NCBI RefSeq assembly: GCF_000177675.1
Contig: NZ_ADGX01000020.1
Location: forward strand, 16-64,015
Direction of reading: 5' to 3'
Origin: Parafrankia sp. EUN1f
GTDB taxonomy: Bacteria; Actinomycetota; Actinomycetes; Frankiales; Frankiaceae
Length of the DNA stretch: 64,000 nt
Position 1 is the stretch's first letter; the number at the start of each line of letters is the position of its first letter. Below are positions 10,387 through 44,144 of the stretch, piece by piece. The notes under the pieces were generated by a model. The model saw only the letters and a program-made list of their open reading frames with translations. It was not told the DNA's origin and made no database searches. The translations under genes and the position numbers were made by a program.

Positions 10387-10971
10387 TCAGGTTGTGGTCT
10401 GGCCGTCGATCGTCTCGCGGAGGATGTCGGCGTGGCCGGCGTGCTGGGTGGTCTCGGCGATGATGTGGATCAGTACCCGGCGCACGCTGTGCCGGCCGCC
10501 CGGCTCGTGCCACGGCGCCTCCGGCAGCGGCTGCGTCGCCGACAGGTCGGGGATGGTCGCGACGATCTCGTCGGTCCGGGCGGCGACCTCGCGGTAGCGA
10601 GCGACGATCCCGGCGATCGTGTCACCCGGCTGCATCTGGAACACGTTCTGGCGCTCGATTGCCCAGGCCGGATACTCACGCGCGGTGCCGGTCATGAAGT
10701 CCTCCCAGGTGACGCCGTCGGGGAGCGCGTAGTCCATCGCCGAGGGCCCCTCGAGGACGAAGCGCATCCAGCCTTCCTCTGCGGCGGCGACATGCTTGAT
10801 CAGCCCGCCCAGGCACAGGGCGCTGGCCGTCGGGCGTTCGCCGGCCTGCTCGTCACTGAGGCCGCAGGTGGTGTTGATCAGGCTGGCTCGGGCCACGGCG
10901 AGCTCGGCGAGCAGGTCGGCCCGCTCCGCGTCGAGGGCTACCGGGTGCGTGGTCGTGGTCGTGGTGGTCAT
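10387..10971 (-). CDS. DinB/DUF664-family protein (mycothiol-transferase-like fold)
   Basis: A 194-residue four-helix-bundle protein. LGGLIKHVAAAEEGWMRFVL and VLIHIIAETTQHAGHADILR give the spaced histidines (HVAAAE, HIIAETTQHAGH) that bind a divalent metal in the DinB superfamily. Such proteins are thought to catalyse thiol-dependent transfers, often with mycothiol in actinomycetes. The N terminus is a run of seven Thr codons, which may be disordered. Divergent from a WYL regulator at 11075, a common pairing in actinomycetes. Confidence 0.88.
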   Translation of the reverse strand: MTTTTTTTHPVALDAERADLLAELAVARASLINTTCGLSDEQAGERPTASALCLGGLIKHVAAAEEGWMRFVLEGPSAMDYALPDGVTWEDFMTGTAREYPAWAIERQNVFQMQPGDTIAGIVARYREVAARTDEIVATIPDLSATQPLPEAPWHEPGGRHSVRRVLIHIIAETTQHAGHADILRETIDGQTTT

Positions 10972-11074
10972 CGTGATCGGCCCCTTCCAGGTCGTTGCCG
11001 TTGTCGGCTGTGACCACCACGGTCGTCCGGGAAGCGGTCAGGTTCTGGCCTCTTCTTCGGGCAATCTCTTGGGC

Positions 11075-12186
11075 ATGCCGACGACGTCAGCGCGCCTGCT
11101 CGCCCTGCTCTCGCTGCTGCAGGCACGCCGGGACTGGCCGGGGGCACTGCTCGCCGCGCGGCTCGAGGTCAGCCCGCGCACGGTTCGCCGCGACGTCGAC
11201 CGCCTCCGTGAGCTGGGCTATCCGATCCGGGCCACCAAGGGCCCCGACGGCGGATACCGGCTCGATGCCGGGGCGGAGCTGCCGCCGCTGCTGTTCGACG
11301 ACGAGCAGGCCGTCGCCCTGGCCGTCGCGCTCCAGCTCGCCGTCACGTCCGGTGCCGGCATCGGGGAGGCGGCGGCCCGCGCCCTGAGCACCGTCCGGCA
11401 GGTCCTGCCGGCGCGGCTGCGCCATCAGGTCGACGCGCTGCGGGTCATCGCGGTCGAACGCCGCGGCGGACCGTCCAACCCGCGGGTCGAGCCGGCCGTA
11501 CTGGTGACGCTCGGGGCCGCCGTCCATGCCCGGGAGGAGCTGCGCTTCGACTACGCCGTCCCGTCGCGGTCCGCGCCCGCCGACGTCCCCCCGCCGCGTC
11601 GGGTGCAGCCCCATCACCTCGTCACCTGGGGCGGACGCTGGTATCTCGTCGCCTGGGACCTGGACCGCGCCGACTGGCGCACGTTCCGCGCCGACCGGAT
11701 CACCCCGCGTCCCCCGGCCGGCCCGCGGTTCACCCCCGCCAGCTGCCCGGCGTGGACGTGGCCGCCTTCGTCGCCCAGCGCTTCCAGGGCTCCGGCTCCG
11801 CCGGTCCGGACCGCTGGCCGTGCCGCGGCGAGATGATCGTCGATCTGCCCGCCGCCTTCGTGTCCCAGTTCTCCCGGGACGGGATCGTCGAGGAGCTCGG
11901 CCCGAACCGCTGCCGGCTCGTCGCCGGCTCCTGGTCGTGGCCCAGCCTCGCCGCCACCGTCGGCCGGTTCGACGCCGACATCGAGGTCCTCGGGCCGCCC
12001 GAGCTCGCGGACGCCTTCGCCATGTTGGCCCGCCGCTACGCCCGCGCCGCCGCCGGGCAGCGGGGCGGGGCGTCGACGCCAGGGCGGATCGGCCCGTCGG
12101 GAGGCTCTGCTGCCAGCAGACAGCCTCTGCTGCCGGCAGAGGCTGCTCCCGACGGCCTCGCCGACAACCTAGGTTCGCCTCCATGA
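11075..12186 (+). pseudogene. WYL-domain HTH regulator (YafY-like) interrupted by a -1 frameshift
   Basis: Frame 1, from ATG 11075, gives a DeoR-like HTH (TVRRDVDRLRELGYPIRA and GGYRLDAG) and most of the WYL domain (HHLVTWGGRWYLVAWDLDR). It loses similarity after FTP. Frame 2 then continues the expected protein (QLPGVDVAAF, WPCRGEMIVDLPAAF, SWSWPSLAATVGRFDADIEV) and stops at 12186. Adding one C to the CCCCC run at 11733-11737 restores FTPRQLPGV. The frame-2 stop overlaps the next start as ATGA, showing that frame 2 is the native end. Either a true mutation or a sequencing slip. Confidence 0.85.
12121..12145 (+). repeat. 10-bp hairpin inside the WYL 3' end
   Basis: CAGCCTCTGC at 12121-12130 pairs with 12136-12145 around TGCCG. 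Neighbouring copies of the same letters (GGCTCTGCTGCC upstream, flanked by GTCGGGA and TCCCGAC) allow alternative pairings. It lies about 40 bases before the start of the coupled hydrolase and might modulate it. Confidence 0.4.
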
Positions 12187-13037
12187 CTGGGAAGGACAGC
12201 ACGAAGGACGGCGCGACTGTCACCGGCTGGGCGGCTGGCGTGCCGTTCACGGCACTGCCTCCTGCCGGAGGCGCTGACGAACCGGCTCCGTTGCTGGCGA
12301 CCTGGCACATGATGGACGCGCCACGCTCGGACGCCGCGTTCGCCGCGGCACTTCCGCTCACGGATGTGCCCGCCTGGCGGGTGCATTTCGGAATGCCGCT
12401 GGTGGGCCGGCGCCCGGTGGACGGGGCATACGAGGCCGCGGTGGCCGACCCGATGCTGGGATATGTCGACCCGGTGGTCCGGCAGGCCACCGACGAGTTT
12501 CCGGCGGCACTCGACGCGTTGCGTGCGCAGCTTCCGCTGTGCGGCGGGCCGATCGGTATCGTGGGCGCCTCACTCGGCGGTACCGTCGCCCTGAACGTTC
12601 TTGCCCGCCTGCCGGTCCAGGTCTCGGCGGCGGTGCTGATAAATCCCGCAGTCCGCGCTCGGACGGCGGTGGACGTCTTCACCTCCTCGATCGGCAGATC
12701 CTGTTCTTGGAACGAGCAGGAGCAGGCGGCTGCCGCGCGTCTTGACTTCGTGACGCACGCATCGTTCATCAGCGGCCGGAATCCACAGCCGGCAGTACTC
12801 GTGGTCAGCGGTGAACTCGACTACCCGGCAAGCCGTGCCGACGCCCTCGATATGGTGGTGGCGCTCCAGGCCGCTTATCCGGATGCCGACCGGGTCAGGC
12901 TGCGCACAGTCGCCGGTCTGGAGCATCCGCTCGCCGAACGCCCGGGCCTGGAACCGGCGCCGCAGACTCCGCTCGCCAGGGTCGTCGATCGCATGGCCAG
13001 CGAGTGGTTCCAGGCGCACCTCAGCAGGGCGGGATGA
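12183..13037 (+). CDS. Alpha/beta hydrolase
   Basis: A 284-residue cytoplasmic hydrolase. The nucleophile elbow is GASLGG (residues about 130-135), the acid is Asp in VVSGELDYPAS and the base is His in GLEHPLAE, completing a Ser-Asp-His triad. The core strand IGIVGASLGGTVALNVLAR is typical of esterase or lipase-like members. Its ATG overlaps the WYL stop (ATGA), so it is translationally coupled to that regulator, and the frameshift upstream could lower its expression. Substrate unknown. Confidence 0.87.
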   Translation: MTGKDSTKDGATVTGWAAGVPFTALPPAGGADEPAPLLATWHMMDAPRSDAAFAAALPLTDVPAWRVHFGMPLVGRRPVDGAYEAAVADPMLGYVDPVVRQATDEFPAALDALRAQLPLCGGPIGIVGASLGGTVALNVLARLPVQVSAAVLINPAVRARTAVDVFTSSIGRSCSWNEQEQAAAARLDFVTHASFISGRNPQPAVLVVSGELDYPASRADALDMVVALQAAYPDADRVRLRTVAGLEHPLAERPGLEPAPQTPLARVVDRMASEWFQAHLSRAG

Positions 13038-35738: not shown

Positions 35739-36028
35739 CTGATGCACCCAGGCGTGCCCGGCGTGACGCGATCCGAGCCGAGTACGCGGCCGAGGAGGCC
35801 GAGGCTGCCGAGGCGGAGGCTGTCGAAGCAGAGCAGGCTGTCGTGTCTGTGAGAGTTCCCGCCTCGTTGGCCGAGGCTCTCAAGGCCCGTGCGGCAGCCG
35901 AGCACCTGCCGACCTCGGCGTTGGTCCGGCGCATCCTTGCTCGGGCCGTCCAGAGCCCCGATGCGCCTGTCGTGAGTGTGGAGCAGGTCGAAGAGATCGT
36001 GCGCAGGGTCCTCCGTGAATCAGCGTGA
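35735..36028 (+). CDS. Ribbon-helix-helix antitoxin candidate
   Basis: A 97-residue protein. An Ala/Glu-rich N terminus (AEYAAEEAEAAEAEAVEAEQ) is followed by VVSVRVPASLAEALKARAAA and LPTSALVRRILARAVQ, a ribbon-helix-helix domain. The acidic helical N terminus could neutralise the upstream toxin. GTG 35735 overlaps the toxin stop by four bases. Confidence 0.7.
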   Translation: MTDAPRRARRDAIRAEYAAEEAEAAEAEAVEAEQAVVSVRVPASLAEALKARAAAEHLPTSALVRRILARAVQSPDAPVVSVEQVEEIVRRVLRESA

Positions 36029-36074
36029 TTTGCGGTCCGCAAACAGTCCGCAGAACGCCGGAAAATTGCCCACA

Positions 36075-36200
36075 CCAGTGGCAACTGCTGAAAGCGGCAA
36101 CCGCGGGTCAGGCAGCCTGCAGACCGGATAGGTGCAGGTCGAAGGGCTACGCCGTGGCACGAAGCAGATGAAGGCCGCGGCCAAGGCGCAGGCCAGCTGA
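36075..36200. repeat. Dispersed repeat copy A, joined to an HhH-GPD 3' scrap
   Basis: Two blocks match the 44-kb region: 36075-36111 versus 44327-44363 (about 84 percent) and 36126-36174 versus 44683-44732 (about 82 percent). The second block runs into GAAGCAGATGAAGGCC and then GCGGCCAAGGCGCAGGCC to TGA at 36200, which copies the end of the HhH-GPD gene at 35.25 kb (KQMKAAAK then stop, followed by ACCTGCGG). Confidence 0.7.
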
Positions 36201-36774
36201 CCTGCGGTTTTCACGCTATAGTCGTGCCGCCCGGTCATCTCGGCTGCGTTTCGTTCACATGCGCCGGTCGGACCTCCGCCATGTCCACCGGCGAACCCGT
36301 GGCACGAGGTTGGCGGAGCCCTGGTGACGCGTGGTGGAGCAGGGTCGGGTGCCACGCCTCCCCGACGGCGGTCGCGGCGGCGTCGAGTCCGGCACTGGCA
36401 TCGGACCGGGCTCGTGGGCCGGCGTGCCGGCCACGGCGGCAGCCGGCCGGGTGCCGGGCGCCGGGCGCGGATCTCGATGCGGCCGAACACCGCCACCAGC
36501 CCGGTCATGATCACCGTGAGCATGAGGGACCAGGGAAGCCGCCAGAGCCACCAGTTTCCACGGGGTGGTTCACCGGCGGCTGTGTGCCGGCTTCACCACC
36601 ACCACGCCGTCATCGTGACACCGCCCTACGACAGGACCTCGACCCGACGGGTCACAGCAGCAGGGCCGGGGAGCCTTTGCCGCTCCCCGCCCTGCCTGAC
36701 CCCGCTCCTGCCCTACCGATCGGCGCGGTTACGCGGCGTTGCCACTGAGTGCAAGGCCGTGTCTCCGGACGGGT
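36201..36774. other. Long gap; hairpin near its right end
   Basis: No firm gene. A leftward frame near 36480-36570 has one hydrophobic stretch (WSLMLTVIMTGLVAVF) and may be a scrap of a membrane protein. The rest is GC-rich with no recognisable pattern. Confidence 0.4.
36660..36695 (-). terminator. GC-rich hairpin downstream of the metallophosphoesterase gene
   Basis: GCAGGGCCGGGGAG (36660-36673) pairs with CTCCCCGCCCTGC (36683-36695) with one bulged base. It lies 80 bases after the stop at 36775. Confidence 0.5.
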
Positions 36775-37803
36775 TTACAGGTACGGGACCCGCTCCCAGC
36801 TCAGGACATCAGCCGCGCCCGGGCGGTTGATGGTGACCTTGAGCCAGTCGACGTTGTTGCTCGATCCGTCGACGGTGATGCGATGCAGATTGTCGGCCGA
36901 TCCGGTGATGCCGTAGGTGGTGAGCCAGTGCGACCCAGCGGCCAGCGGGTGGTCGCTGTCGTAGATATGGCTGTCGCCGTTGAAGAGGTAGGTCTGCCCC
37001 TTGAACGAGCTGGACTCGTCGACGATGGCCTGGATGAGCGGCTTGAAGGCCGAGATGTCAGACCACGCGGGGGTGTAGGTCGGGTCGAACATGTCCGCCT
37101 GCGTGAACAGTGCGACCGCCCGGTCGTGACGCTTACGGGCGTCGGCGAACGTGTCGCGGACGACCGCGATCGTGTTGGCCATCCGAGCGTTCTCCTCGGC
37201 CACCTGCGCAGGAGTGGCCGTGCTCTGCCCGATGCCGGTCCAGGGCTGCAGGTCGTCGTTGCTGCCGGTCACGTGCAACGTCGCGAAGTCGACGCCGTCG
37301 CGGCGAAGCTGCACGTTCTCCGGGTATCCGGCGGCGGCCTGGCTCTCGACGGAGATCGGGTTCTGCCCCAGCGTGGTACCAGGGTTGGCGAAGAACACCG
37401 ACCTGTCGAAGGCAAGCCGCTCGAGCGGGTTGTACGCACCGTTGTTCGCACGGTGGCAGTCGGTCCACTCGTTGTCGCCAGGCGTGTAGATCAGCGGCCC
37501 AACAAAGCGGTCGAAATCGCTCTTGATCAGGTTGTAGTAGGCGTCGTCGCAGCGGCTGGAGCCGTTCTTGATGTCGCCGACGTGGAACGTCATTTCTGGC
37601 TGGGCCGCGTTGATCTGGTCGATCCAGCCGGGAAATGCCGCGATCTGGGCGGTGCCGTAGGGCACGTCCCCGATGACGGCGAACGAGAAGTGTCCGGGCT
37701 TTTCCTGGCCGGGAGGAGTGGACCCGGCGAAGGCGGACGTCGCCGACAGGGCGACACCGCTAACAGCGAGTGCCACCACCTTCATAAGACGTGTCACACG
37801 CAT
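36775..37803 (-). CDS. Secreted metallophosphoesterase
   Basis: A 342-residue precursor. Residues 1-27 are a Sec signal (VTRLMKVVALAVSGVALSAT then SAFA). The calcineurin-like metal motifs are visible: GDVPYG, HVGDIKNG, YTPGDNEWTDC (GDNE) and LFNGDSHIYDSDHP (GDSH). Two cysteines could form a disulfide. It probably removes phosphate from an extracellular substrate. ATG is preceded by a GGGGG run. Upstream, 37804-37860 is AT-richer and likely carries the promoter. Confidence 0.9.
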   Translation of the reverse strand: MRVTRLMKVVALAVSGVALSATSAFAGSTPPGQEKPGHFSFAVIGDVPYGTAQIAAFPGWIDQINAAQPEMTFHVGDIKNGSSRCDDAYYNLIKSDFDRFVGPLIYTPGDNEWTDCHRANNGAYNPLERLAFDRSVFFANPGTTLGQNPISVESQAAAGYPENVQLRRDGVDFATLHVTGSNDDLQPWTGIGQSTATPAQVAEENARMANTIAVVRDTFADARKRHDRAVALFTQADMFDPTYTPAWSDISAFKPLIQAIVDESSSFKGQTYLFNGDSHIYDSDHPLAAGSHWLTTYGITGSADNLHRITVDGSSNNVDWLKVTINRPGAADVLSWERVPYL

Positions 37804-38396
37804 TGAACCCCCAGAATGGCATCTTGATTGTCAGGCGGTGGATAACGGTGCCAGCAAACGGCGCCACACGGGTGAACAAAGGGAAACGTGCGGATGAAAA
37901 TCTACCTACCGGGCACGCGCCCGGTCGAGCCTGTACACATCAAACTCACATCTTCTGCGCCCCAGGCGAATTCCGGTCGCGGCGGCGCACACGCCAGATC
38001 AGATTTACGACCACACGTTGCGGTCAAAGGTCCGGGCGTGGCCTCACATTGTTCCTGGGGGTCGCCGCCTCCGGCAGAGCCGCCGGGCACGCTCACCGGA
38101 CGCCGCCGCCACGCCGGGACGTGAAGGCGTCTCGAGCGAGGAACTCGTCGGCATCCTGCGGTTGGAGGTGATCCGTGCGGAGCAGACCCGTGCCGACGCC
38201 GAGCGGCGCCTGCGCAGTCTCGAACACTGCCTCGCCGAGATCCGCACTGTGTACGCGCATGCGGTGCGGGTCTGCTTGCCAACGAGTATCAGCCCCGCGG
38301 GCGCCTCATGGTGGCACGAAGCAGGTGAAGGCCGTCGCCAAGGCGCAGGCGGGCTGACCTGCCGTTTCGTCAGGAAGATCGCAGAAGGCGCGCGTC
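37804..38396. other. Long gap with an HhH-GPD 3' scrap and a helical fragment
   Basis: 38317-38357 reads GAAGCAGGTGAAGGCC and continues to TGA, a third copy of the HhH-GPD gene end. Before it, 38120-38290 is open and reads SSEELVGILRLEVIRAEQTR and LRSLEHCLAEIRTVYAHAVR, a coiled-coil-like helix with no clear start. Nothing else is recognised. Confidence 0.5.
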
Positions 38397-38780
38397 CTAG
38401 ACGGTGACGATTTCGATGAGGTCTTCGAGGCCGGTGAGGTCGGCGGCGTTGCGGGTGTAGACGCTGGCTTCGTGAGCGTGCGCGGTGGCCGCGATCAGGA
38501 GGTCCATCGTTCGGGCACGTGGCTGGCGCCCGATCTCGACGACGCGGGCGGCGAGTCGCCCGTAGCTGTCGGCGACGGCGTCGTCGAGGGGCAGGGGGTC
38601 GAATCGTCGTTGCAGTGCGCTGAGACGGGCGAGGCGGTTCGCGCGGGTCTCGGAGGTCTTGGCGACCAGGACGCCGAAGTGGAGCTCGGCGATGCTGATG
38701 ACGCTGATCGCGAGTTCGCCGGGGATCGGCGCGACGTCGGTGGCGACCAGAACGCTGGTGTCGAGGATGCCGCGACTCAC
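38397..38780 (-). CDS. PIN-domain toxin (VapC family)
   Basis: A 127-residue PIN ribonuclease. Acidic residues: Asp in ILDTSVLVATD, Glu in SVISIAELHFGV, Asp in RTMDLLIAATAHAH and Asn/Asp in YTRNAADLTGL. Intact by length. Its ATG overlaps the antitoxin stop by four bases. Different subfamily from the PIN toxin at 7 kb. Confidence 0.93.
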   Translation of the reverse strand: MSRGILDTSVLVATDVAPIPGELAISVISIAELHFGVLVAKTSETRANRLARLSALQRRFDPLPLDDAVADSYGRLAARVVEIGRQPRARTMDLLIAATAHAHEASVYTRNAADLTGLEDLIEIVTV

Positions 38781-39025
38781 CGGGTTTCCCAGGGATCTTC
38801 AACGGTGCCGTCGATCAGATCGCGATCGCTGGGCCAGTCCGTGTCGGCCGGGAGGGAGAAGATGTCGGCGAGGTCGTCCCAGCGCCGCCATCTGTGCGGA
38901 GCCACCGGACCGAGCACAGCTGCCGGTCGGCCGGTAACGGTGATGGTCAGCTGCTCGCCGGCCTGGGCGCGCCGCACCAGCTCACTGGCGTTCTGCCGCA
39001 TCTCGCGTAGTCCTATCTCGGCCAC
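38777..39025 (-). CDS. Phd/YefM-like antitoxin
   Basis: An 82-residue protein. LREMRQNASELVRRAQAGEQ and LTITVTGRPAAVLGPV are the Phd/YefM DNA-binding half; the C-terminal SDRDLIDGTVEDPWETR should bind the PIN toxin. GTG 39025 lies six bases after TACCCT, a leaderless arrangement. A short inverted repeat sits just upstream. Confidence 0.9.
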   Translation of the reverse strand: MAEIGLREMRQNASELVRRAQAGEQLTITVTGRPAAVLGPVAPHRWRRWDDLADIFSLPADTDWPSDRDLIDGTVEDPWETR

Positions 39026-39031
39026 CGATTC

Positions 39032-39053
39032 AGGGTAGCACTTGTGTTACAAG
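39032..39053 (-). promoter_or_regulatory. Promoter and inverted repeat of the Phd/PIN operon
   Basis: On the minus strand TACCCT (39032-39037) is placed six bases before GTG 39025. CTTGT and ACAAG at 39041-39053 form an inverted repeat with a 3-base spacer directly upstream of the -10, a likely antitoxin site. Confidence 0.55.
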
Positions 39054-39227
39054 GTGACCTCGCTCCGCCGTTCCGAGCCTTCCGAGACTTTCGAGCACGG
39101 TCTGTGGCGAGACCTGGCCGCGATCCGATCAGCGCGGTATGCCCGGCAGGGGTCTGATCAGTGGTATCGGACACGGTGCGACACTGATCGGTACGTCCGG
39201 TGACGGTGCCGGATCAGGGGAGGTCTC

Positions 39228-41174
39228 ATGCCGGACCGTCTGTCGGACGCGGAGATCAAGGCGCTCGCTGAGGCGTGCCCGGGCCGAGTCGAGGCTCGCC
39301 AGCTCCTCGAGGCGGCCGGTGTGAGCCGGGGCCGCCAGCCGATCTGGAACGTCGAGTCGGCGGAACAGTTCTGGCGCGAGGTCTCGCACGTGCTGGCGGC
39401 GGGAATTCGCCTGGACGAGCGTGCCCGCTTCGTCGGCGATGGCCGGGCCAGCCTGTTGGCGGTGGCCGCCGAGTGGTTTGCCGGCAACGAGGTTTTCGCG
39501 CGCGCGGCCGCCGCGGGCCCGGGCGGGCCGCCACCTGGGGAGGGCGGGCCGGGGGCGGTCTTCGACGCGCCGCCGCCGGAACGGGCGGCGGACTGTGCGC
39601 CGAGCGTTCTGCTACGCGCCGAATACCTGGTGGTGCCCTTTGTGGAGCTCAACGGGGACCGCGCCGCTCTGCGGTCCTGGGCGACGCAGCGGCAGCGGGA
39701 ATCGGCTCGCCTGCTGACCGGTCCAGCCGGTTCGGGCAAGACTCGGCTCGCCATGCAGATCGGCGAGGATCTGACCGCCAAAGGGTGGCTGACCGTCCTG
39801 GCCCGATCGGGGTCACCACTGAGCGCGGCCCGGTTGGGATACCTGCGCACCGCTGGCGCACCCACCCTGGTGATCATCGAGGATGCGGAGCTCAGGCCGG
39901 ATGAGACAGTGGCGATCGCACGCGCGCTGGTGGGCCGGTCGACCGCGAGCCGGCTGCTTCTGCTGACCCAGGCCACCGAAGCCCTGCTCCGGGGCCTGCG
40001 CGAGCTGGCCCTGCCGGACACTCAGGTCGCTGGCATGTTCGAGCGAGCGGAACCACAGACGGTTACGCCGCTGGCCCCCGGCCCGCACGCCAGGCAGGTT
40101 CACTTCGCTGCCGCCCGCTCCGCGTTCGCCGCCGAGCTGGGCACCGCGACGGGCGCCGCACCCGACGCCGGCCCGTGGGCCGACATCGAGGACGTGGACA
40201 CGGTGCTGGACGTGCACACGGCGGCATTGCTGGCGGCTCTGTCGGATGCCCCCGTCGCGCGGCCGGCCGAGAGCCCGCTGACGACACTCTGCCGGCACGA
40301 ACGGACACGGTGGCCCAACCCCGCCGGCACGGGCGCGGGTGCCGCGACCGGCCCTGGCACCGGGCTCGCGGCCCAGGTCATCACCGCGGCCACCCTGCTG
40401 CGTCCCGGTTCGGCCGACGACGCGGAAGCACTGGCCGCGATGCTGCCGGAACTGCTTCAGGCCAGCCCCGGCGAGCTGCGGAGCCTGCTGGACGAGCTTC
40501 GTCGCCAGTACGCCGGCCGGTGGGCGGTCGAGGCGCTGTGCCCCAGTGCCTACGGAGAGCACATCGCGGCGGTGGCGCTGGCCCAGTCGCCGTCGCTCGC
40601 CGAGACCATCGCGAAGGCGGCCACGCCGGATCAGGCCGTGACCGCGCTGACAGTGCTCGGCCGGGCACTGCCCGCGCACCCGGAACTGGCTGAGGCGATT
40701 GGAGACATCATCCGGGCTGACCCGGAACGGCGTCTGCTCGCGGCGATCGATCTGCTGCCCCGCCTGCCTGACCCCGACATGTTCGTCCGCGTGATCAGCA
40801 AGCGGGTCGACGACATTCCGCCAGGCTCACCGGCCCTGTTCGCCCTGCTCGACCGAGGTCGGATGGACCGAGGCGGCCCCGAGCTCGACAGTCTGCGCGC
40901 TGAGACCCTGCGGATGCTGACGTCGCTGCCGGACCACCTGCTCGGAGGCGCGCGCTCGGGCCTTGCCCAGGATCCGGCGCTGGCCGGTGTCGCCAGGATT
41001 GTGGACGCCTTCACCCAGACGATCAAGGATCTGGCCATCGGAGTCGTCGACCCGAAATCCGACCGCATGCCCAGGAACCCCGAAGATGGCACCCCGGTCC
41101 TACCGCCTGCGGCAGTGGACGTCCTGCGCGGGCTGATGCGGAGCGACTGGTGGCGGAACCAGGGAGAGAAGTAG
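39228..41174 (+). CDS. Large P-loop NTPase with an EAD1-like N-terminal domain (candidate conflict-system protein)
   Basis: A 648-residue cytoplasmic protein. Residues 1-60 (LSDAEIKALAEACPGRVEAR, QLLEAAGVSRGRQPIWNVES and FWREVSHVLAAG) resemble effector-associated domain 1 (EAD1), a helical adaptor found on STAND NTPases and effectors in bacterial conflict systems. Walker A is GPAGSGKTRL at about 164-173 and Walker B LVIIEDAEL at about 213-221. The C-terminal half is helical with Leu/Ala-rich repeats, like a sensor solenoid. ATG follows GGGGAGG. It lies beside a PIN/Phd toxin-antitoxin pair. The EAD1 assignment is from memory of the motif and unverified; no effector with a matching domain is seen nearby. 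Confidence 0.75.
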   Translation: MPDRLSDAEIKALAEACPGRVEARQLLEAAGVSRGRQPIWNVESAEQFWREVSHVLAAGIRLDERARFVGDGRASLLAVAAEWFAGNEVFARAAAAGPGGPPPGEGGPGAVFDAPPPERAADCAPSVLLRAEYLVVPFVELNGDRAALRSWATQRQRESARLLTGPAGSGKTRLAMQIGEDLTAKGWLTVLARSGSPLSAARLGYLRTAGAPTLVIIEDAELRPDETVAIARALVGRSTASRLLLLTQATEALLRGLRELALPDTQVAGMFERAEPQTVTPLAPGPHARQVHFAAARSAFAAELGTATGAAPDAGPWADIEDVDTVLDVHTAALLAALSDAPVARPAESPLTTLCRHERTRWPNPAGTGAGAATGPGTGLAAQVITAATLLRPGSADDAEALAAMLPELLQASPGELRSLLDELRRQYAGRWAVEALCPSAYGEHIAAVALAQSPSLAETIAKAATPDQAVTALTVLGRALPAHPELAEAIGDIIRADPERRLLAAIDLLPRLPDPDMFVRVISKRVDDIPPGSPALFALLDRGRMDRGGPELDSLRAETLRMLTSLPDHLLGGARSGLAQDPALAGVARIVDAFTQTIKDLAIGVVDPKSDRMPRNPEDGTPVLPPAAVDVLRGLMRSDWWRNQGEK

Positions 41175-41203
41175 CCGTCGGCTGAATCCGTCAGGCCACT
41201 GCG

Positions 41204-41758
41204 TCAGGCTGTGACGGTCACCGTTCCGGTCATCGACGGGTGGATCTGGCAGATCACCGTGAAGGTTCCCGCCTTGCTCAGGGTGACCGTTGCGCGCTGG
41301 CCCTTCTCGAGCTTGCCGGTGTCGAAACCGCCGGCTTCGGATGTCCACGTGTGTGGTGCGCTGTCGTTGTTGACGACGGTTATCGTCTGCCCCACTTTGA
41401 ATGTCGGGGTCTTCGGGCTGAACGCGAAGTTCTCGATGGTCACGGTCGTGGCGCTCGGCGCGCTGCCCGCTGTCGCGCTGCCCGCTGTCGCGCTGCCCGC
41501 TGTCGCGCTCCCCGAATCCGCGGCCGGGGCCGTCGTGGTCGACGGGTGCGATCCGTAGGACGACGAGTGGTCCGCGCCGGCCGCCGTCGCGGTCACCGGA
41601 GCTGACGGACTGGGCGTGACGGCGACATCCGTGTCCGTACCGTCGGACCCCCCACACGCGCCCAGCAGGAAGGCCAGTGCGGAGCCGGCGACGGCGACCC
41701 GGCAGGACGCGCCCACCATTCCCGCTCGGCGTCCTCCAGTCACGAGTACCAGGTTCAC
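41204..41758 (-). CDS. Cupredoxin-domain lipoprotein
   Basis: A 184-residue precursor. ALAFLLGACGG is a lipobox with Cys about residue 26. A Ser/Thr/Ala linker contains Ser-Ala-Thr-Ala-Gly repeats from a 15-bp tandem repeat (about 41458-41512). The C-terminal domain (IENFAFSPKTPTFKVGQTIT, SAPHTWTS, FTVICQIHPSM) has His, Cys, His and Met ligands of a type-1 copper site. GTG 41758 follows GAGGAGC. Likely a cell-surface electron carrier or copper binder. Confidence 0.88.
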   Translation of the reverse strand: MNLVLVTGGRRAGMVGASCRVAVAGSALAFLLGACGGSDGTDTDVAVTPSPSAPVTATAAGADHSSSYGSHPSTTTAPAADSGSATAGSATAGSATAGSAPSATTVTIENFAFSPKTPTFKVGQTITVVNNDSAPHTWTSEAGGFDTGKLEKGQRATVTLSKAGTFTVICQIHPSMTGTVTVTA

Positions 41759-42037
41759 GGGAGCTCCTCGCAGGTCGTGACCCACCATTTTCGGTGTCGT
41801 GGCCCGACACCGCCGGCGGATCGGCCGGGGACCATGCTGCTGCCCGGCGCACAACTCGCGTGCGCTCTGTCGTTCTCGCGACCGTCACTGATGTGGCGTC
41901 GGGGCGCGCGCAGTCATGTGGGGGGTGGGTCCGATGCGGCCAGTGCGGGAGACGGCTGATCGCCGTTCGAGTGCGCCGAGGCGGGCGAGTCGGTTTGCGC
42001 GGGCGTCGGGCCTCGGGCGTCCTCGTGACTCGGGTGT

Positions 42038-42631
42038 TCATCGAGCGGTGACGGTGAAGGACGCGTATGTTCCGGCGGGCTCCATCTCGGGACCGCCCGG
42101 CTGCCAGGAGACGCTGAGCTCGCGGCCTTGGGTGATGGCCGCGGGCAGGGTGACCCGGAAACGGAAGTCCTGGCTGGCCTTCGCTGCCAGGACGGACACG
42201 GGCCGGGTGTTGAGGCGGTAGGTGGACCTGGTGTTCACCGCCTCCCGCGCGGCGTCGCCCAGGGAGACCATCAGGCCGTAGGGACCGGTCCGCCGGATGG
42301 CGCGAGACTCCTGGTCGTCGGCGTTCGGGTCGACGTGTGGGGTCCGGTCCTGCCAGGCGGGCAGGACGGCGGCAAGGTCGGAGGCCTGGCAGTGACGGTC
42401 CGTCGTGATGGTCCGGCGGGGGCGTGCCGCCCGGGTGAACTTGGAGTCGGCCGCCGGCTCGTCCACCCATGGAACCGTGCCGTCGGCCGCGAGGGTGGCC
42501 GGCGCGGACACCCTCGGCGGCAGCGCAGTGGCCTTCGTGTCCGGGGCGCGGCCACATCCGGCGACCAGCCCGCACGCCGTCATGACCGCCGCCATGGTGA
42601 CCGGTGCGATATGTGCCCTGATGTGCCTCAT
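42038..42631 (-). CDS. Lipoprotein of unknown function (DUF4232-like pattern)
   Basis: About 197 residues. MAAVMTACGLVAGCGRAP is a lipoprotein signal (lipobox LVAGC). The mature part (WVDEPAADSKFTRAARPRR, DRHCQASDLAAVLPAWQDRT, FRFRVTLPAAITQGRELSVS) resembles DUF4232-type secreted proteins. I prefer ATG 42631 over 42667, because the latter lies inside a 20-bp palindrome that looks like an operator. Ribosome site not obvious for either. Confidence 0.7.
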   Translation of the reverse strand: MRHIRAHIAPVTMAAVMTACGLVAGCGRAPDTKATALPPRVSAPATLAADGTVPWVDEPAADSKFTRAARPRRTITTDRHCQASDLAAVLPAWQDRTPHVDPNADDQESRAIRRTGPYGLMVSLGDAAREAVNTRSTYRLNTRPVSVLAAKASQDFRFRVTLPAAITQGRELSVSWQPGGPEMEPAGTYASFTVTAR

Positions 42632-42664
42632 ACGGTCGACTACATCCCCCACCTCCACATCGGT

Positions 42665-42684
42665 CATGAGTACACGTACTCATG
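42665..42684. promoter_or_regulatory. Palindrome upstream of the lipoprotein gene
   Basis: CATGAGTAC at 42665-42673 and GTACTCATG at 42676-42684 are exact inverted repeats with a 2-base centre. It lies 34 bases upstream of the preferred start at 42631. Confidence 0.5.
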
Positions 42685-42729
42685 AGCGCGCTTTGGCCGA
42701 GGCGGGGGCGGCCTGAAACGGTGGCGGGT

Positions 42730-43596
42730 TCAGGTACTGGCTACCAGGACGTCCTCGCCGCTTGATGGGCGGAGGCCGTCGGGCCGGCCGGTGAAGTAGC
42801 GTTCGGCGAGCGTCGCGCCCGGTATGTGGTTGACATCCTTGAAGCCCGCCTCGCGGGCCGTCGCGAGCATTTCGTCGGGTGTGTAGAAGCTGATGAACGG
42901 GGTGTTCGAGGCCTGCGCGCCTTTCCTGGACGCGTCGAGCCCGGCGCGGTCGGCGTCATCGGTGAGCAGTTCGGGCGGCAGTAGGAACGTCATCGCGACC
43001 GTCGAGCCGGGGGCGAGCCCGGCGATCTGGCGCAGGGTGGCGGCGGTGGCCTCCTTGGACAGATACATGGTCACGCCGGTCGAGGCGAAGACTGCCGGCC
43101 GCGTGGCGTCGAAGCCGGCGGCGGTCAGGTGCGCGGGCCAGTCCCCGTCCGCCTCGAGGTCGACGGGGACCAGGCGCAGCCCGTCCGGGATGCCGTAGCC
43201 CAGCTCGATCAGGCGTTGGCGCTTCCACGCCTGGGGGCCCGGCTGATCGACCTCGAACACTGTCAGGCGGGCGGTGATCTCCGGCTCGCGCTGGACGAAC
43301 GTGTCCAGACCGGCGCCGAGGATGACGTACTGGTCGACGCCCTGGGCTGCCTTCTCGGTGACGAGGTCCTGGATGAGACGCGCGCGGGCCACGATCGACG
43401 CCCGGAATCCGCTGGTGGCCTGCGGGCTCATGTCCGGCCGGGCGCGCCAGTCGCCGTCGGGGGCGGCCAGGCGCAGGCCGATCTCGTCGGCGAGGACGTG
43501 CGGCGGCGGGTCGACCTGGACGTGCATCGCCCGCCAGAGGGCGACGCGAACGGCGGTGCTCTCCGGCGCGGTGCTCCGCGGGTCAGTGCCTGTCAT
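42730..43596 (-). CDS. SAM-dependent methyltransferase, TIGR00027/leucine-carboxyl-methyltransferase-like
   Basis: A 288-residue protein. STAVRVALWRAMHVQVDPPP, SIVARARLIQDLVTEKAAQG and QYVILGAGLDTFVQREPE, followed by VFEVDQPGPQAWKRQRL, are diagnostic of the TIGR00027 (LCM-like) methyltransferases frequent in actinomycetes. It starts four bases after the VOC gene stop, as the third gene of a leftward operon. Substrate unknown. Confidence 0.9.
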   Translation of the reverse strand: MTGTDPRSTAPESTAVRVALWRAMHVQVDPPPHVLADEIGLRLAAPDGDWRARPDMSPQATSGFRASIVARARLIQDLVTEKAAQGVDQYVILGAGLDTFVQREPEITARLTVFEVDQPGPQAWKRQRLIELGYGIPDGLRLVPVDLEADGDWPAHLTAAGFDATRPAVFASTGVTMYLSKEATAATLRQIAGLAPGSTVAMTFLLPPELLTDDADRAGLDASRKGAQASNTPFISFYTPDEMLATAREAGFKDVNHIPGATLAERYFTGRPDGLRPSSGEDVLVAST

Positions 43597-43600
43597 GAGT

Positions 43601-43960
43601 TCACGTCCCCAGACCCGCTCGGCCGGGGGCCTGGAGACTCCAGAGACGCCCGTCGGGATCACGGACAGTCATCTCCCTGGTGCCCCAGTGGGTGTCCTCG
43701 AACGGGGTGACGACGTCAACCGCGGGGTCGGGCTGGAAGGTGTCCGCGTCAGGCACCTTCAGTACGATGCGCGGCGCCTGGAGTTCCCGGGACTCGGGCA
43801 TCTCCGCGATGAAGACGTAGGGGCCGTCGCCGTTGCGAAGCTGGCCGGAGTTGTGACCGGTGTCGAACTCCAGCTTGAAACCCAGCGCCTGGAAGAACCC
43901 TGCCGCCCTGCCCCAGTTGTGGGTCTCCAGGAACACGGCTTCGATTCCTTCGGTCGTCAT
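43601..43960 (-). CDS. VOC/glyoxalase-family protein
   Basis: A 119-residue protein with the paired beta-alpha-beta-beta-beta fold of the VOC superfamily: IEAVFLETHNWGRAAGFFQA and LGFKLEFDTGHNSGQLRNGD, then EMTVRDPDGRLWSLQAPGR. His/Glu metal positions are only partly recognisable. It begins two bases after the CopG stop and ends four bases before the methyltransferase start, so all three genes are cotranscribed. Confidence 0.87.
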   Translation of the reverse strand: MTTEGIEAVFLETHNWGRAAGFFQALGFKLEFDTGHNSGQLRNGDGPYVFIAEMPESRELQAPRIVLKVPDADTFQPDPAVDVVTPFEDTHWGTREMTVRDPDGRLWSLQAPGRAGLGT

Positions 43961-43961
43961 G

Positions 43962-44144
43962 TCAGGTCTCCGTTTCTGACGGTCGCTGCCCGCGGGCGTC
44001 GTCAAGGTAGGCGCGCAGTGCCTCGGCGACGAGCGCCGAGAGGGACAGCCCCGACTCGATGGCATGGTGTTTGACCTGCTTGATCAGCCCGATCGGCAGG
44101 TACACGTTGAACTGCTTGACGTCCTCGTCGCCCACGGTCGCCAC
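43962..44144 (-). CDS. CopG-type ribbon-helix-helix protein
   Basis: A 60-residue protein. [20 protein letters not shown] and [20 protein letters not shown] form a ribbon-helix-helix. It leads a three-gene operon with a VOC protein and a methyltransferase and is preceded by palindromes, so it is probably an autorepressor rather than an antitoxin. GTG 44144 lies six bases from TAGCAT. Confidence 0.85.

Follow-up and report, generated by a model that had tools for sequence, protein, structure and literature searches.

The window, by which we mean the whole 64-kb stretch of DNA analysed here, encodes a protein in which an EAD1 adaptor domain precedes a STAND P-loop NTPase region and a helical C-terminal half (Table 1). 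In two Frankiaceae relatives a TIR domain stands in the EAD1 position on the same module, and elsewhere in the genome EAD1 itself is found fused to TIR. Our preferred reading, which we consider probable rather than certain, is that the protein is a STAND sensor of the nSTAND5 type that would recruit in trans effectors of the EAD1-TIR kind (or others with EAD1).

Because its arrangement matches the EAD principle as set out in the available excerpts of Kaur et al. 2020 (PMC7159879) and Kaur et al. 2021 (PMC8195603), the protein is one more member of the described class of EAD-coupled STAND proteins. As those excerpts describe the class, the shared features are an EAD at the N terminus of the NTPase, further EAD copies on effectors of the same genome, whether linked or unlinked, and the swapping of EADs and effectors such as TIR on STAND NTPases. 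The types named in the excerpts are NACHT, MNS and nSTAND1 with FGS lectin domains, whereas the window protein is of the nSTAND5 type, its C-terminal end was found in Frankiaceae only, and it has neither a repeat nor a lectin domain.

Table 1. Features of the EAD1-STAND gene and its surroundings, in window coordinates
Feature	Coordinates	Strand	Basis or remark
EAD1-STAND NTPase gene	39228..41174	+	Intact ORF, 648 aa, ATG start
EAD1 adaptor domain, class B	39237..39512	+	Pfam E 1.4e-16; genome search; alignment
STAND P-loop NTPase region	39603..40365	+	Pfam, motif alignment, structure model
Helical C-terminal half (residues 381-648)	40368..41171	+	Pfam, alignment, model, class-wide search
PIN-domain toxin candidate, neighbour outside the system	38397..38780	-	Pfam; linkage comparison
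Phd/YefM antitoxin candidate, neighbour outside the system	38777..39025	-	Pfam; linkage comparison
LCM methyltransferase / glyoxalase-like / RHH block	42730..44144	-	Neighbourhood marker shared with the TIR-NTPase of G018

The many antisense ORFs that appear in the ORF list owing to the high G+C content were disregarded. The frame at 39228-41174 is a real, working gene, since its third codon positions are GC-rich (0.84, versus 0.56 at position 2) and its dN/dS values (0.16 against the 97% ortholog and 0.35 against the 82% ortholog) show purifying selection; within the gene, the dN/dS comparison finds the strongest constraint in EAD1. The sequence-only reading had described an EAD1-like N terminus, a P-loop NTPase with Walker A and B, and a helical part, and all three descriptions hold up. 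Pfam assigns EAD1 (PF19955) to residues 4-95, covering positions 2-87 of the 90 in the profile, with 61.1 bits against a cut-off of 24.2. The nSTAND_NTPase5 profile (PF25199) matches residues 154-247 and passes narrowly (34.4 bits, cut-off 34); its scores in the three relatives scanned (L070, L071 and L072) are 27 to 33.6. In an alignment with five relatives, Walker A is GPAGSGKT (165-172) and Walker B is LVIIED (214-219). The C-terminal half is predicted to be all-helical. NCBIfam and PADLOC give no assignment for the protein, the best PADLOC result being a weak Avs2 match (E 0.078). A sequence search of the PDB returned weak P-loop matches only, and a plasmid search matched other STAND proteins in their NTPase part only.

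Confidence in the model of the whole protein is good for the NTPase, fair for the helical part and poor for EAD1; when EAD1 was modelled alone, six helices were predicted, but with a mean pLDDT of just 57. Foldseek with the whole model places the SIR2-STAND protein EfAvs5 closest (E 6e-5), followed among STAND-type structures by Apaf-1 and SAMD9, with Apaf-1 third overall (E 3e-4). The VIA comparison of the model with EfAvs5 gives Z 13.7 over 175 residues at 4.8 A. ORC/Cdc6 (AAA+) chains come within Z 1 of the STAND matches in a second fold comparison, and the fold matches are at 10-14% identity only. Avs5 (AVAST type V, SIR2-STAND) resembles the window protein in having an N-terminal effector position, a STAND NTPase and a C-terminal part; it differs in that SIR2 is fused in that position, where the window protein has the adaptor EAD1 and no SIR2. 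By analogy, Apaf-1 and CED-4 (CARD - NB-ARC - sensor) would work alike, with a helical adaptor on a STAND switch recruiting an effector that bears the same adaptor, although the window protein is without a WD40 domain.

The C-terminal half was compared with 393 genomes of the class. Residues 381-648 have full-length matches in six of these, all Frankiaceae and consisting of four EAD1 forms and two TIR forms, and most of the other matches are limited to the first 150 residues. The C-terminal end, with its conserved VDPxSxRMP motif, was likewise found only in Frankiaceae members among these genomes. Given this distribution, the family seems to be without the repeat superstructure of its cousins; Pfam and the model find no TPR or WD40 repeats in the window protein. 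In remoter relatives, read by eye, the N terminus is trypsin-like, TIR or EAD1, and the NTPase is followed by TPR-like repeats.

Orthologs were sought in 35 genomes of the order, and the family is present in six. Full-length orthologs occur in G019 (97% identity), G002 (82%) and G030 (49%); a Frankia canadensis protein (L087) is by sequence an 82% ortholog, and Frankia sp. CiP1_Cm_nod1 (L088) is another named relative; by these two, the window belongs to the Frankiaceae. The proteins of G026 (L071) and G018 (L072) match the window protein only from residue ~95 onward, at 46-47% identity. Their N termini are TIR_2 (Pfam) in the EAD1 position, and the alignment reaches the C-terminal VDPxSxRMP motif. 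EAD1 and TIR are thus interchanged, at the level of sequence, on one NTPase and C-terminal module, and the reading of EAD1 as an adaptor is supported because these relatives carry TIR directly where the window protein has EAD1. In the NTPase tree, which is small, the TIR pair has the G030 protein, an EAD1 form, as its sister and the window clade lies outside, with EAD1 forms on both sides. Because the TIR pair is nested among EAD1 forms, a single replacement of EAD1 by TIR would explain the pattern most simply on this small tree. The EAD principle gains a natural test here, one NTPase and C-terminal module being found once with the adaptor and once fused to the effector; comparing the two forms would bear on whether EAD1 substitutes for a covalent TIR link.

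One of the TIR fusions also shares the gene neighbourhood. The TIR-NTPase gene of G018 is 1.7 kb from an ortholog (86% identical) of the methyltransferase, and the window gene is 1.6 kb from its own; in G019, 10 kb separate the two genes. The methyltransferase, glyoxalase and RHH block is common to the window and G018, with the NTPase on the opposite side of the block in G018. We read the two NTPase genes as lying in the same variable neighbourhood, which falls short of proof for replacement in place. To judge by locus L166, described below, this methyltransferase neighbourhood could be a hot spot for defence genes.

Can the effector be found? A six-frame scan of the 64-kb window and of the adjoining 18 kb on the right-hand side of the contig revealed neither a second EAD1 nor a TIR domain, in agreement with the sequence-only reading that no matching effector is nearby. 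That reading went on to place the partner possibly elsewhere in the genome, and a genome search for further adaptor-bearing proteins agrees with this as far as sequence goes: the 9.35-Mb assembly (396 contigs) yields 18 EAD1 matches above cut-off, that is, 17 besides the window protein, several of them fused to TIR. EAD1 has no matches in 14 control genomes. The description of the NTPase as an orphan applies to its gene neighbourhood and fails genome-wide, where five proteins have both EAD1 and TIR_2 above cut-off (L026:7748-8617, L028:5281-6807, L029:8439-9635, L030:13354-14274 and L033:9607-10446). In a sixth protein, L027:8181-9188, EAD1 is accompanied by a TIR match just below cut-off. The number of EAD1s in this genome agrees with the excerpts of Kaur et al., in which unlinked EAD copies are already described for the EAD-coupled class and the effector gene is often, though not obligatorily, adjacent (PMC7159879).

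The conserved TIR Glu is present in L026, L029, L030 and L033 (L027 was left out of this comparison). In L028:5281-6807 (minus strand), which runs from EAD1 through an unassigned middle to TIR, it is replaced by Ala, and for this reason the TIR of L028 is perhaps inactive. Other EAD1 proteins of the genome combine the domain with NB-ARC or AAA-type NTPases (L032, L036) or with EAD2 (L031, L037), and in several the partner domain is unrecognised or absent. EAD1B-TIR proteins are present in the 97% and 82% relatives (G019 and G002) as well.

TIR kinship singles out none of these proteins as the partner, since the TIR family in question abounds: an EAD1-TIR query has 28 matches in the genome itself, most of the matches listed hitting the TIR part, and up to 49 in other genomes. 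The TIRs of L071 and L072 are 46-52% identical to those of L029 and L030, and a pairing drawn from this similarity was set aside as unusable for proof. Directly downstream of the EAD1-EAD1-TIR gene of L029 is a gene (L029:9697-13608, plus strand) whose product combines WD40 repeats and a P-loop region with an N terminus resembling TIR.

As we envisage it, the C-terminal half of the window protein would sense the trigger, and ATP binding and oligomerisation would cluster the N-terminal EAD1s. The clustered domains would capture EAD1-bearing effectors, above all EAD1-TIR, by like-with-like contact, and induced proximity would let the captured TIR domains act on NAD+; in the TIR-STAND fusions of the relatives, the same would take place within a single chain. 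Judging by the families involved, the protein would serve in defence against phage or other invaders. Several findings count against this explanation: there is no effector beside the gene, the EAD1 nearest in sequence to that of the window (53%) comes from the STAND protein L036 (EAD1-STAND-TPR) rather than from an effector, the NTPase has Thr-Gln at sensor 1, the TIR family is too common for kinship to point to a partner, and the fold matches are of low identity, with ORC/AAA+ chains scoring almost as well.

The second of these findings also fits an accessory role, in which the window protein would dock by its EAD1 onto a different EAD1 core, for instance the ternary MoxR-vWA system of L027 or an EAD1-NB-ARC protein, and modulate it. 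The genome does contain a MoxR-vWA pair, behind which lies a third component bearing two EAD1s, and the window protein is without the TPR or WD40 repeats usual for STAND sensors. On balance we think this unlikely: in relatives that have TIR fused straight onto this module, the module has its own effector and so looks like a self-sufficient receptor.

The sensor-1 residue raises a different doubt. Sensor-1 Thr247 is followed by Gln in both the window protein and the 97% relative (LLLLTQ), and by Arg in L069, L070, L071 and L072 (LLLLTR); Arg behind this Thr is common among STAND proteins and not strictly defining. The window protein might accordingly be a weakened or decoy receptor, whose EAD1 would bind effectors while the switch cycles abnormally owing to the change from Arg to Gln. 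We regard this as quite improbable. Walker A and B are intact, dN/dS between the two Gln forms is low with no amino-acid change in EAD1, and the argument turns on one side chain whose role is unproven.

Frankiaceae are filamentous, and signalling or programmed cell death in development could be considered in place of defence. EAD systems are concentrated in multicellular bacteria according to the available excerpts of PMC7159879, which would suit such a role; the exchange of effector and adaptor and the patchy presence within the order fit conflict systems better, however, and a developmental function strikes us as very unlikely.

The sequence-only reading had also set the NTPase beside a PIN/Phd toxin-antitoxin pair. 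The pair is real, in that both the PIN and the Phd/YefM proteins, encoded upstream on the opposite strand, are above the Pfam cut-off, but the implied link finds no support. The pair is divergent from the NTPase gene with a gap of 202 bp, and both genes also lie beside the 97% ortholog in G019. Stretches of 17 kb around the genes of G002, G030 and G018 lack them, as does the 5-kb contig of G026; beside the 82% ortholog, 8 kb were searched upstream. Because it is kept only beside the 97% relative and missing beside the 82% ortholog, the pair is to all appearances a chance neighbour, in a stretch common to two near relatives only, and we rejected it as a part of the NTPase system. That the close divergent genes form one defence unit with a PIN RNase as effector is scarcely credible when the 49% ortholog and the TIR forms lack the pair too and neither of its proteins bears an EAD1 (Pfam). 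Window positions 35746 to 42712 (~7 kb) hold PIN/Phd, the NTPase and a cupredoxin gene; the two blocks flanking this segment abut directly in G018 (L072:12092/12093).

The EAD1 domains themselves can be divided into two classes. In an alignment of those from this genome and two from G030, a long branch sets five (class A) apart from the rest (class B), and the window EAD1 belongs to class B. It contains an insert of eight residues, LDERARFV, that is missing from all of the 15 other class-B EAD1s in the alignment. When profiles of the two classes were applied to 49 EAD1 domains from five other genomes (G002, G018, G019, G026 and G030), part of which are orthologs of the training set, mainly in G019, 42 favoured B by at least 42 bits and 7 favoured A by at least 78 bits, leaving a gap from -42 to +78 bits with no overlap. 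Every tandem EAD1 protein seen has A followed by B (L029, the third component of L027, two cases in G030, one in G002, and a pair in G026 that occupies two frames), some of these cases being of common ancestry and so not independent events. The loci behind the class and tandem observations are L027, L029, L070, L162, L163 and L164. The split may be new; the excerpts of PMC7159879 and PMC8195603 available to us make no mention of it.

As a tentative proposal, more doubtful than probable, the two classes could be docking classes that are not interchangeable. Class B would be carried by STAND receptors and TIR effectors, and class A by other components, some of them at a MoxR-vWA system; tandem A-B proteins (one without a recognised catalytic domain) and EAD2-B proteins would bridge separate sensors and effectors into one network, with the window protein among its class-B receptors. 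Such bridging proteins would be comparable to animal FADD or CRADD. If the EAD1 classes are binding classes, they would supply a first rule for pairing receptors with effectors in genomes that contain 15 to 30 EAD1s.

Several loci deserve description in their own right. L027:8181-14427 contains a MoxR-like gene (10389-11417), a vWA gene (11414-12586) and then the third component, which bears two EAD1s; immediately upstream of the set are two class A EAD1 proteins. This locus is a predicted EAD1 ternary system. Class A EAD1 was considered as a marker of MoxR-vWA loci and dropped, the association being seen only at the G000 and G019 locus, with no MoxR relative in the stretches read at the class A loci of G002, G030 and G026. 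In L165, the G019 ortholog of L027, the third frame continues into a TIR domain. Each of the EAD2-EAD1 proteins of L031 and L037 has a MoxR-like ATPase within ~3 kb; these ATPases are 35% and 28% identical, respectively, to that of L027. L070:7297-7965 (minus strand), divergent from the G030 49% ortholog of the window gene, encodes EAD1 A-B with no other recognised domain and looks like a bare adaptor. In L164:597-1198, a class A and a class B EAD1 are in different frames with 119 bp between them, which could be a frameshift, two genes or an assembly error. Finally, L166 (G020:C180:1-20000) has a 67% methyltransferase homolog with an EAD1B domain and a TIR domain no more than ~10 kb away.
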